Assembly (NCBI RefSeq): GCF_001457035.1
Contig: NZ_KQ758624.1
Location: 1 to 61,316, forward strand
Direction: 5' to 3'
DNA length: 61,316 nt
Origin: Fictibacillus enclensis
GTDB lineage: Bacteria; Bacillota; Bacilli; Bacillales; Fictibacillaceae
The notes under the pieces: model-generated
Seen by the model: the letters and a program-made list of their open reading frames with translations, nothing else
Told to the model about the DNA's origin: nothing
The model's database searches: none
Shown: positions 39,239-42,190 of the stretch, piece after piece
Numbering within the stretch: the first letter of the stretch is position 1
Layout: the number at the start of each line of letters is the position of its first letter
Position numbers and translations under genes: made by a program

Positions 39239-39574
39239 ATGGCGTATCAGATCTTCATTTCTGTAGGTAAAAAAAGAATGACAGTTACGCGAAACGGAAG
39301 AACCATTAGGCGATATCCCATTGCAGTGGGGAAGATGCTTACTCCTACGCCTGTGGGAACGTATACAATAATTAATAAGCAGCCTAATCCCGGTGGTCCG
39401 TTTGGTGTCATGTGGATGGGGCTTTCCGCACCCCACTATGGCATCCATGGCACCAATGACCCATCGTCAATTGGAAAAAACGTCTCAAAAGGATGCATTC
39501 GAATGTTCAATAAAGATGTACTCGAACTGTCCAGAATGGTTCCGGTTGGAACGAGGGTTTATATTGGGAGATAA
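39239..39574 (+). CDS. L,D-transpeptidase (YkuD domain), minimal form
   Basis: This 111-residue protein is a bare YkuD catalytic domain with [14 protein letters not shown] and the catalytic SKGCIRM (Cys near residue 87). Such enzymes form 3-3 peptidoglycan cross-links or attach proteins to the wall. It has no signal peptide and no LysM domain, so export or substrate access is unclear, and it may be a spore or mother-cell enzyme. It ends 4 bp from the stop of the converging peptide gene. Confidence 0.87.
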
Positions 39575-39578
39575 CTTT

Positions 39579-39794
39579 TTATCCACGCATGCTGATTACC
39601 TGAGGCAGGTCATCGTGCGCAAGTAAAGTATCAGAGTTCTTTATAAAACCTGTACCAGGCCAAGGAAGATCATCATGAGCTACAAACTTAACAGATTTTG
39701 CGCTTGGAAGATCATCGTGAGCTAAGTTACTATAAACAGGGTATGCTACTGAAACCAAACTGACAAAAAAAAGACCAATAATTAATTTTTTCAT
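39579..39794 (-). CDS. Secreted signalling propeptide with three AHDDLP repeats
   Basis: The 71-residue product has a Sec signal peptide (MKKL, then a hydrophobic core and AYPVYS). A short mature part holds three copies of (L/V)AHDDLP at about residues 24-31, 38-44 and 58-65, separated by unrelated linkers. The three DNA copies differ at several third codon positions without changing the residues, so the hexapeptide is under selection. The gene starts 18 bp after the TPR regulator, with AGGAGG at 39806-39811 and ATG at 39794. This is the layout of NprR-NprX and PlcR-PapR quorum-sensing pairs. I know no described member with this peptide. Confidence 0.8.
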   Translation of the reverse strand: MKKLIIGLFFVSLVSVAYPVYSNLAHDDLPSAKSVKFVAHDDLPWPGTGFIKNSDTLLAHDDLPQVISMRG

Positions 39795-39812
39795 TTTTTT
39801 ATTTTCCTCCTG

Positions 39813-41078
39813 TTAGAAAATATTTTTTCTTGCATTATTTGCAATACGGTAATAATGGCTTGCCTTTTTATATTGGCTCTGATCAAAATACCAATCTGCT
39901 AACAGCTCTGAATCAATAGAGACATATTCCCACATGTTTCTTTTTTCAAAATGAGGGATTGCTTCTTTGCTTATAAAGGATTCAAACTCATTAGATTGAG
40001 TCCCTTTAACTCTAAAGTCTAATACCTTTAGATGGTAATAAACATCGTTTTTAGAATCTTCCCCAAGTGTCTCAAAGCTTTTATTAATCCAATATTGTGC
40101 TTGCTCGTAATCTTTAATATTGAAATATTCCTGTGCTAAAAGATATGTTGTTGTGGTAATCCGTTCTACGTCTATAGAGTCTTTTTTATAATGAAGAGCT
40201 TTTTTATAAAAATCAATTGCTTTAACACTCTCTCTTTTACAAGAAAAAACATATCCAAGATTATGATAAATAACCCCGGAAGTAAAATCATCGTGAAAAG
40301 ATCGGGAATATTTTAATGCTTGATTTAGGTGGTATTCAGCCTGGTCATAGTTCTGAACTCTTCTATAACTAATCGCCAGTAATATCTGACAATCCGCACT
40401 TCTGCTGTAATTATACTCTTTATCAAAAATTCCGATTGCTTTAAAGGCATATGAATTTACAGCATTTATTCTCATCAAGTAACCATATGTTAAAGCTGTT
40501 AAATAATATAAAACTGCCAAATTACTTTCATTGATATTTGTATTTTTCGTGTTATAAATATCTTCTGCTTGTTTAAAAAACTGTATAGATAAATGGTAAT
40601 TTCTCGAAAATATATTTAGCATTCCTGAGACCACATTAAAATAAAATTTTAATTCAGGTGAAAGTTGTTCCTTTAGCTTTTCAACTTTTCCAATTAGTTT
40701 CTCAGCAGAATTTATATTTTGAACTTCTCCAACAAGATAGTATCTTGCTAAAAATAACTCGAATCTTAATATTAAGTCAGGTTCATTAACATGCTTCATT
40801 TTGTCCTGGATTTTTTCAAATAGTTCCTCCGCCTCATCAAACCGGCGGTTCACCATCATCATATTCCACTCGTTGAGCATCTCTAGGATCTCGTTGCTGT
40901 CCACTTCCTCGGACGAAATACCCAGCTTTTCACAAAGAAGGTTAATAACCTCTTCGCTGGACTTTGCATCCCCTTTCTCAATCTTGCTTAAATAGGACAC
41001 TGAACAGATTCCCTGAGCCAGTTCTTCCTGGGTTAGGCCTTTGGTTTTTCTATAATATCTTATTCTTTGACCGACCAT
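39813..41078 (-). CDS. RRNPP-family HTH-TPR regulator, NprR-like
   Basis: The 421-residue protein has an N-terminal XRE HTH (LTQEELAQGICSVSYLSKIE, about residues 15-34), very like NprR/PlcR regulators. About 340 residues of TPR helices follow (NYDQAEYHLNQALKYS, ESVKAIDFYKKALHYKK and similar). RRNPP receptors bind re-imported oligopeptides in the TPR domain. The repeat peptide gene lies immediately downstream in the same direction, so it is probably the cognate signal. ATG 41078 follows AAGGGGG. The region is richer in A+T than its surroundings, which suggests transfer. Confidence 0.88.
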   Translation of the reverse strand: MVGQRIRYYRKTKGLTQEELAQGICSVSYLSKIEKGDAKSSEEVINLLCEKLGISSEEVDSNEILEMLNEWNMMMVNRRFDEAEELFEKIQDKMKHVNEPDLILRFELFLARYYLVGEVQNINSAEKLIGKVEKLKEQLSPELKFYFNVVSGMLNIFSRNYHLSIQFFKQAEDIYNTKNTNINESNLAVLYYLTALTYGYLMRINAVNSYAFKAIGIFDKEYNYSRSADCQILLAISYRRVQNYDQAEYHLNQALKYSRSFHDDFTSGVIYHNLGYVFSCKRESVKAIDFYKKALHYKKDSIDVERITTTTYLLAQEYFNIKDYEQAQYWINKSFETLGEDSKNDVYYHLKVLDFRVKGTQSNEFESFISKEAIPHFEKRNMWEYVSIDSELLADWYFDQSQYKKASHYYRIANNARKNIF

Positions 41079-41302
41079 ATAATCCCCCTTTCCGAACTTG
41101 GGAAAATTGTCATGCAAACCCCCCATTAATCAAGTACCAATACTACTACTTTTCCCAATACATACCCACAGAAATGTCTGGTAAGATAAATATAACAGAT
41201 AATAATTGCTTTTTGCTAGATTTACCAATTAAAAATAAATTAACAGACTTGTCCGGATGGTAAGAAAGTTATACCGGCCATTTAGAAATGGAGGAGAACA
41301 TA

Positions 41303-42190
41303 ATGGCAAAAATGTTTTCATTATCAGCAAACGAATCAGACATCAAGGAACTGCTATATGTCTCGAATGATCCAGATACAGCCGGGAACTCTTCGACACT
41401 GCAATGGAATGATCCACAAACATATATCGATGTTTATAAAGACAACCATAAAAATTACTGGGTGAGCCAGGTTGAAGGAACAAAATTAAGACGCCATACC
41501 ATCTACACCCATAACCATGAAACGAAGAAGCGCCTCTGTCACCCTGTCAACGGACGTCCGAACTTTTATGAATTTGAGGATAGCGTGGTGGTGGCTTGTG
41601 AAGGAGATGGGTCCAAAGGCTCTATTCTGATCTTCTCCAAGGATGATCCCGAGCTTTTAAAGGAGTGGAAAGTGAACGGGTATCTGTGGGAAGTGGAAAA
41701 GAACAACGGCACGCTTTATGTTTCCTGTTACATCGTAGAGGAAGATCAGGCTGTCCTTTACATCATCAAGGGCGATAAGAAAAAAAGGGTAAACCTTGGA
41801 AAAAATATAGCACCGACTGACATTCTCTGTATCGGTGAAGAAGTTTATATTTCTGCAGCGCCCATTTTGAATGGGGATCCAAAGAAAATCATCGTGCTGA
41901 ACAATAAGGAAAAGGTGATCAGGGAGTATCCGCTTAGCATTTCTCCACGAGCCCTTTACCATGTGGAGAACGAAATCATGGTGTATGAACTTGATCTTGC
42001 GACAGGAAAATCGGAAAAGATCGTTTACGTGGATCTTAACACCGGCCAGCAAATCACACATACCATCCCGAACTCTCAAGTGGTGGAATGCACGAGTTCT
42101 TCACTCTCCCTCTTGCAGCAGGACAGCAAAACCCTGTTCACCTGGGATCACTGCAACCGAAAAATCGTGTGCAGTAAAAAAATATCATAA
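41303..42190 (+). CDS. Protein of unknown function, divergent from the peptide-sensing regulator
   Basis: This 295-residue protein has no signal peptide or membrane segment. Beta-rich segments with recurring VxxxD/GxLYVSC-like strands suggest a beta-propeller-like fold. I recognise no family. GGAGGAG precedes ATG 41303. It is transcribed away from the NprR-like regulator across about 220 bp of A+T-rich DNA, so it is a candidate target. The intergenic region shows no clear operator to my eye. Confidence 0.65.
   Translation: MAKMFSLSANESDIKELLYVSNDPDTAGNSSTLQWNDPQTYIDVYKDNHKNYWVSQVEGTKLRRHTIYTHNHETKKRLCHPVNGRPNFYEFEDSVVVACEGDGSKGSILIFSKDDPELLKEWKVNGYLWEVEKNNGTLYVSCYIVEEDQAVLYIIKGDKKKRVNLGKNIAPTDILCIGEEVYISAAPILNGDPKKIIVLNNKEKVIREYPLSISPRALYHVENEIMVYELDLATGKSEKIVYVDLNTGQQITHTIPNSQVVECTSSSLSLLQQDSKTLFTWDHCNRKIVCSKKIS

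Follow-up and report, generated by a model that had tools for sequence, protein, structure and literature searches.

The locus described here lies in a 61,316-nt stretch of Fictibacillus enclensis DNA (the window) and comprises the gene for a putative peptide receptor, a small gene for a secreted-type peptide directly after it, and one neighbour on either side:

39813..41078, minus strand: receptor/regulator gene, 421 aa, with the HTH in codons 1 to about 75, then a RapH_N-like linker and a TPR domain
39579..39794, minus strand: putative pheromone precursor gene, 71 aa, with a Sec-like N-terminus and three AHDDLP copies, 18 nt past the receptor stop codon
39705..39722, minus strand: AHDDLP copy 1
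39663..39680, minus strand: AHDDLP copy 2
39603..39620, minus strand: AHDDLP copy 3
41303..42190, plus strand: divergent gene, 295 aa (300 aa from the upstream ATG at 41288), no Pfam match, with the operator candidate just upstream
39239..39574, plus strand: convergent YkuD L,D-transpeptidase gene (PF03734, 4.5e-26), which lies beyond the cassette delimited below and served as a flank marker only

The receptor start was set at the ATG at 41078 because of a Shine-Dalgarno-like sequence (GGGGGA) and conservation; the mechanical ORF of 437 aa begins at an upstream ATG, and the stop codon ends at 39813. Pfam searches with the receptor returned HTH_3 (2e-12), TPR_12 (1.7e-15) and, for the Rap-like three-helix bundle region, RapH_N with an E-value of 2.2e-5 and 24.8 bits, under the curated cut-off of 27. 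RRNPPA receptors are described as proteins of 250–500 aa with a TPR domain (PMC10075063; papers with PMC numbers are cited throughout from excerpts), and the size and TPR_12 match of the receptor agree with this. The nearest solved relative is NprR (4gpk, phmmer E 2.4e-21), with Rap proteins also among the best matches. Among the 33 complete family receptors introduced below, codons 1–40 of the HTH are nearly invariant, and W71, which aligns with NprR W79, is present in 33/33.

The receptor tree rules out a plain NprR orthologue: the Bacillus thuringiensis (Bt) NprR stretch from 4gpk clusters with loci L122/L123, and the family groups with other members of the order (FastTree, support values left aside). 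As a query, the same Bt NprR stretch found matches in 6 of 397 order genomes at 1e-30. An origin of the locus from a phage or plasmid was likewise rejected, since its place is syntenic, the phage matches (7 records) cover no more than 70% of the receptor at 24–26% identity, and the plasmid matches (63 records) are all below 60% identity, with the 15 listed at 22–30%. Relatives of the receptor among named contigs amount to 11 loci, all of them in Fictibacillus. The window's own genome encodes three more HTH-TPR paralogues (L002, L003, L004), which have Arg at the place matching Arg240 of the receptor, and four SBP_bac_5 oligopeptide-type binding proteins. L004 has a candidate precursor with a single copy, which ends LFDEEFPDI. 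No precursor was recognised directly downstream of L002 and L003, which are possible eavesdroppers.

The first-pass annotation had proposed that an HTH-TPR regulator is followed 18 bp on by a 71-residue Sec-type peptide with three AHDDLP copies, and the gene coordinates agree. RRNPPA precursors are expected to be adjacent to the receptor gene, 10–100 aa long and equipped with a Sec signal; the window precursor has 71 aa and lies 18 nt away, with the Sec signal judged by hydropathy only. The same simple hydropathy check gave a Sec-like N-terminus in 33/33 family precursors, some of which in relatives are longer than 100 aa. With the precursor as query, Pfam, NCBIfam and PHROGs yielded nothing at E ≤ 1. 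The AHDDLP codons read GCTCACGATGATCTTCCA, GCTCATGATGATCTTCCT and GCGCACGATGACCTGCCT in copies 1–3; as observed earlier, the copies differ synonymously at third positions only, with five of the six codons varying and no residue altered. AHDDLP is also the only stretch common to all three copies. From the repeat unit first suggested, (L/V)AHDDLP, the hexapeptide stands, and the L/V before it is part of the linker, which is less conserved. Among relatives, conservation extends over 7–8 residues.

To place the pair in its family, we used 34 genomes of the GTDB family, one per species, all of which had a receptor match at E 1e-60 or better (34/34). One genome (G016), in which the receptor runs off the contig end, was left out before counting, so that 33 complete orthologues remained. 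A secreted-type precursor follows the receptor in 33/33, at distances from a 1-nt overlap to 24 nt. The number of motif copies per precursor ranges from one (three genomes) to nine (three genomes), with at least three copies in 30/33; precursors with one copy or no clear core were found in G002, G007 and G025 (3/33). The motifs of 31 genomes follow the consensus x-[DE]-x-x-P, yet comprise 23 different 5-mers (HDDLP in the window, FDELP, RDELP, HDDNP, HDQNP, SDNSP, FDHTP, IDNGP, TENNP, YDENP and others) and 27 different 7-mers.

In the 30 multi-copy precursors, the mean identity between copies is 96% for the five-residue core and 34% for the linkers, and the core exceeds the linker in 30/30, a contrast that is partly by choice because the pheromone patterns were fixed per genome after the precursors had been read. 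The synonymous changes are not subject to this choice: on average, 36% of the core codon pairs with identical residues differ synonymously. The earlier view that the repeat peptide is under constraint is borne out by both measures. By position, identity between copies is 91–99% at positions 0–4, 77–88% at positions 5–7 and 41–44% at positions 10–11. Given this drop beyond position 7, the mature signal is probably 6–8 residues long. Two precursors contain two motif types each, RDELPGL and MDELPGL in L023 (G005) and IEDNPQPN and IELNPRPN in L030 (G018), and in such cases one precursor may make two signals.

Homologous loci that keep the regulator without the repeats had been named in advance as evidence against the pair. 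AHDDLP itself is indeed found in no other family precursor, yet every orthologue has a motif of its own, which is repeated in 30/33. The absence of AHDDLP is signal diversification, not loss, and an NprR-type peptide quorum-sensing pair with the repeat as its signal is well supported at the level of sequence.

Beyond the family, a survey of the order found matches at 1e-60 in 52 of 397 genomes. We read 38 outside-family matches (L084–L121), several of them from mutually close relatives, and judged 31 to have plausible acidic precursors, 17 of these with at least two copies. Motif types there include HDKVPDS, HEKFPES, EHPDPTS and SEPDHPKIV. The copies in outside-family loci make multi-copy precursors a feature of the wider NprR-like clade, and the same statement is found in PMC9765709. 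Excerpts of that paper report repeats in 17/17 NprR-type propeptides of atypically large size, with a maximum of six copies across the AimR, NprR, PlcR and Rap subfamilies pooled; nprX duplications are also known (PMC5199041), and two multi-pheromone Phr precursors have been tested (PMC11343458). With multi-copy NprR-type and Rap-type precursors published, novelty of three copies per precursor is ruled out, and on this point the first-pass claim, which knew of no pair with three copies in a precursor, does not hold. A search of the open-licence literature for RRNPP systems in Fictibacillus found no paper, which fits the exact pair being undescribed.

We then compared the peptide pocket with those of known receptors, centred on two codons:

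40359..40361, minus strand: Arg240, at the position of Asp194 in RapF and Glu241 in NprR; conserved as Arg in 33/33 family receptors
40260..40262, minus strand: Asn273, aligned with RapF Asn227, the backbone peptide anchor; Asn in 33/33

The backbone-anchoring Asn of RRNPPA receptors (RapF N227) is present as N273 in 33/33, and Arg240, His272, Asn273 and Asp229 are invariant. RapF Asp194 binds the pheromone Arg; the family pheromones are acidic at core position 2, which Arg240 of the receptor would face. Charge pairing is documented for Rap only, because the lysine of NprX (SSKPDIVG) is described as stacking with H201 and W167, with no Glu241 pairing in the excerpts of PMC4970707. All 31 outside-family systems have Arg at 239 or 240 (20 at 240, 11 at 239 only), as do 5/7 outside-family receptors without a recognised precursor and the six NprR-nearer loci L122–L127. 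Since this Arg is widespread throughout the NprR-like clade, few independent changes underlie the charge match, and the Arg–acidic correspondence is best read as a clade-level match, not as many independent events. One outside group (L087, L088, L090, L093, L095–L097 and L119–L121) has Asp in place of the anchor Asn (YHDLG). The pheromones of these same loci read HD[KR][VLF]P[DE]S, with a basic core residue, maybe a second charge swap.

The NprX-contact residues R126, W167, H201, N306, D309 and R343 (PMC4970707) correspond to E118, Y161, Y200, R306, T309 and K343 in the window, a loss that is expected given the different pheromone. The same source describes a tetramer formed by NprR on NprX binding as well as the contacts to Spo0F. 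The Spo0F-contact residues D107, Y118, E188 and Y223 correspond to E99, L110, L187 and Y222, with two of four kept; position 99 is D/E in 28/33 receptors and position 222 is Tyr in 33/33. With these contacts kept, the receptor may have a Rap-like side function. The Rap catalytic Gln (RapH Q47) is Pro100 in 33/33, and the HTH is present. Pocket residues and pheromone distance showed a partial Mantel r of 0.276 versus 0.074 ± 0.116, and 147 of 5000 random sets reached the observed value (n = 31, G002 and G025 left out for having no core); in the dereplicated test (n = 27) 351 of 5000 random sets did so, and this coevolution signal is modest to weak.

Comparison of the window with a close relative (G005) over 8.9 kb revealed a sharply delimited stretch of low identity:

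39560..40840, minus strand, borders approximate: cassette of the TPR sensor domain and the precursor, about 1.3 kb, delimited by identity drop, dS and AU tests

The flanks are 80–100% identical per 100 bp and mostly above 90% (one step had too few aligned bases), versus 40–78% in 50-bp steps from about 40840 to 39560. On the left the border falls close to the HTH/TPR junction, on the right at the precursor end. The precursor of G005 is identical to that of Fictibacillus solisalsi (L017), the sister species of the one that the window comes from. G001 shows a matching identity drop, and G004, which has the same TPR lineage as the window, does not. Even sister species carry different signals.

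Synonymous divergence gives the same picture across the family. Flank dS is at most 0.75 in 26 genome pairs; in 20 of these the TPR domains are 43–59% identical, with dS from 1.9 to saturated, and the pheromones differ, while dS of the HTH in these 20 pairs is 0.14–0.56. The other six pairs have TPR domains 86–99% identical, three of them with TPR dS near 1.5 versus flank dS of 0.34–0.48. Examples, given as dS of flank/HTH/TPR, are G029/G030 (0.13/0.14/saturated), G000/G005 (0.22/0.15/saturated), G012/G017 (0.23/0.23/saturated) and G015/G019 (0.31/0.21/saturated). Conversely, G015 and G017 have a common cassette (97% identity, TPR dS 0.47) despite a flank dS of 0.61.

Tree topologies conflict as well. 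In AU tests the TPR data rejected the flank clades {G011, G012, G015, G017, G019, G022}, {G000, G005} and {G029, G030} (p 1.6e-5, 2.2e-4 and 5e-5), and the flank data rejected the TPR clades {G013, G015, G017} and {G000, G003, G004} (p 7e-7 and 2.6e-66), with the groups named after the trees had been seen, the trees coming from quick searches and fewer than half of the flank columns filled in eight genomes. The flank genes were sought in 33 genomes, and were found in 32 (tag), 33 (the 41303 gene) and 24 (ykuD). A threshold of 65% identity separates 17 TPR lineages, and on the flank tree these require no fewer than 22 changes, versus 16 if each lineage arose once. From these comparisons, TPR domain and precursor appear to have been swapped jointly under a fixed HTH. 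Titles and abstracts of the open-licence literature, seen as the best matches of longer lists, contained no RRNPP system in which sensor and signal are exchanged as a cassette while the HTH stays fixed, no such operator and no mention of the present Fictibacillus system; horizontal transfer of rap-phr alleles is described (PMC5199041).

Saturated cassette dS beside a young HTH and young flanks would also be expected under trans-species polymorphism, in which old alleles held by balancing selection within species are sorted differently, with no exchange between species. The recurrence of TPR lineages in distant species, such as G013, G015 and G017, is in line with this explanation too. The G015/G017 pair, in which the TPR domain is younger than the flanks, nevertheless suits a more recent transfer, and the sample comprises one genome per species. 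We regard sorting of old alleles as possible but rather unlikely, and prefer exchange of the cassette between species.

Conservation in the family is strong over the 140 bp preceding the receptor, a stretch that contains a candidate operator:

41098..41158, no strand: operator TTGGGAAAA-N43-TTTTCCCAA (arms 41098–41106 and 41150–41158), between the receptor and the divergent gene
41182..41187, plus strand: TAAGAT, a hexamer at 23 nt from the operator that may serve as the -10 element of the divergent gene

The form with 8-base arms, TTGGGAAA-N45-TTTCCCAA, occurs in 34/34 genomes, and the reversed control in 0/34. Upstream of 33/33 receptors the 8-base arms stand at a total length of 61, and 9-base arms are present in 32. 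In the window's own genome, 9-base arms with a spacer of 30–60 yield three sites, every one with N43 (reversed control 0), and 7-base arms yield six, of which five have the exact geometry (1 in the control). Across the family there are 2–7 sites per genome in 34/34 with spacers of 33–53 and 1–8 per genome with 8-base arms at the exact length; the control gave 0 in each genome for both. The spacing is not absolute, as seen from the counts for spacers of 33–53 versus the exact length in G025 (4 vs 1), G008 (7 vs 6) and G024 (3 vs 2). The 57 site instances located, with overlapping loci counted twice and part of the family's sites covered, divide into 54 of 61 bp, two of 62 bp and one of 60 bp. 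An operator pattern with extra bases matched the receptor's own site only.

As its target, each site was assigned the closest ORF that was suitable. The five sites of the own genome precede the receptor gene, a DJ-1/PfpI gene, a Rap-like gene with a phr-like ORF, an M4 protease gene and a GH43 gene; a solute-binding protein gene is divergent from the DJ-1/PfpI gene at its operator. The M4 protease site lies 72 bp upstream of the start, and 69–72 bp upstream in three relatives (L167, L168, L170). Sites in relatives also precede subtilase, PhoX, FdhD and Rap-like genes. Control of nprA and other degradative enzymes by NprR is described in excerpts of PMC3325205. At G000:C1:325908-326951 (L005, L197), an HTH-less Rap-like gene overlaps a phr-like ORF ending GVIRDTPTHL, with a 61-bp operator upstream. 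With an operator before rap-phr, one quorum-sensing system seems to control another.

A -10-like hexamer (at least 4/6 to TATAAT) is found 21–23 nt from the site in 27/35 target-side sequences versus at most 18/35 at non-overlapping offsets. On the divergent-gene side it is present at 21–23 in 11/11, but equally in 11/11 at 30–32. A promoter and terminator scan of 39400–41400 found no more than in shuffles. The receptor-side start codon lies 19 bp from the operator, a distance that suits repression more than activation. Activation of the targets, perhaps with repression of the receptor gene, would be the simplest reading of these positions. A relative of the 41303–42190 protein adjoins the receptor in 33/33 genomes, down to about 33% identity (orientation read in 19/32 other genomes), which makes the divergent gene a likely core target.

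Another conserved regulator might bind the 61-bp site, in which case the genes listed would not be targets of the receptor. The site was found by pattern, and the genome has other HTH regulators, including the three HTH-TPR paralogues, that might bind it. Its place directly before the receptor gene in 33/33, a like site before 25/44 outside-family receptor loci (L084–L127), the lack of a site upstream of paralogues L002–L004, the near-invariant HTH and the match of the targets (M4 protease, Rap) to the NprR output class make this unlikely, and we assign the site to the receptor in what follows.

Taken together, the gene pair, the motif constraint, the cassette incongruence and the operator with its neighbours lead us to read the locus as an NprR-type intracellular-receptor quorum-sensing locus with an exchanged cassette under a fixed HTH, operator and output (probability roughly 0.8). 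From them we infer processing, import, binding, activation and a selective reason as follows. Sec would export the precursor, and extracellular cleavage would release from it several copies of a single short acidic peptide with the core HDDLP. An oligopeptide permease would bring this peptide back into the cell, where it would bind in the groove of the TPR domain. There, judging by the alignment, Arg240 would pair with the acidic residue of the peptide and Asn273 would hold its backbone. The bound receptor, probably a tetramer like NprR-NprX, would grip two inverted half-sites 52 bp apart, in an operator that sits about where a -35 box would be. The position of the sites suggests that the thermolysin-type protease, the GH43 glycosidase, rap-phr, the DJ-1 protein and the divergent neighbour would be activated. 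Recombination at a fixed chromosomal place would replace TPR domain and precursor jointly; HTH, operator and output would stay, and species would thereby switch to another private signal and keep the same genes under its control.

Two further explanations can be set aside. One is that receptor and peptide diverged fast by adaptation at their original site, with nothing replaced; it is suggested by motifs and TPR domains that differ between all but close relatives, but positive selection raises dN and not dS, and the saturated TPR dS in four pairs with flank dS of 0.13–0.31 rules out rapid divergence alone; together with the conflicting topologies this leaves it very improbable. A different role for the precursor, as a secreted repeat peptide that acts as an antimicrobial or as a protease substrate or inhibitor, for which its lack of Pfam, NCBIfam and PHROGs matches might speak, is equally hard to reconcile with adjacency in 33/33, the inclusion of TPR domain and precursor in one exchanged stretch, the acid–Arg correspondence and an organisation as in NprR-NprX and Rap-Phr.

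Under cassette exchange, a broader proposal is also fairly probable on these alignments and trees: TPR domain and precursor would form a transferable specificity cassette under a fixed HTH, operator and largely fixed regulon, with at least 17 pherotype lineages in one family, and a charge swap at a single position of the pocket would determine the ligand class (Asp/basic in Rap, Arg/acidic here, perhaps Glu/lysine in Bt NprR). The locus would then clearly exemplify how an intracellular one-component receptor can discriminate kind through replacement of a cassette. The 33 natural receptor–pheromone pairs, with a common HTH, operator and place and mostly different signals, would make an RRNPP specificity code directly readable, and the operator would make the regulon predictable in genomes. 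Why signals come in up to nine copies becomes a testable question.

In agr of Staphylococcus and comQXP of B. subtilis, the signal and the sensor part are polymorphic as a block and the output part is conserved, as here. Those systems use membrane histidine kinases and modified peptides, whereas the present receptor is one-component and cytoplasmic, with the fixed DNA-binding part and the exchanged sensor part in one gene and an array of signal copies. NprR-NprX of the Bacillus cereus group resembles the locus in its receptor with an HTH and Rap-like TPR domain, the secreted precursor just downstream, a neutral (M4) protease among the likely targets and multi-copy NprX-type precursors (PMC9765709, PMC5199041). 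It is nevertheless distant (phmmer E 2.4e-21), with Bt NprR in another tree branch, and differs in its signal (SSKPDIVG versus x-[DE]-x-x-P) and pocket residue (Glu241 versus Arg240); most NprX-contact residues are changed here and two of the four Spo0F-contact residues are kept, and the excerpts describe no cassette exchange under a fixed HTH there. Rap-Phr of the B. subtilis group likewise combines a TPR peptide receptor with an adjacent Sec precursor, has the anchor Asn (Asn227, here Asn273), and is known for multi-copy Phr, allele-specific signalling and horizontal allele transfer (PMC5199041, PMC11343458). Unlike the present receptor, Rap has no HTH, pairs Asp194 with a basic Phr where Arg240 faces an acidic pheromone here, and has Gln47 in place of Pro100 (33/33).
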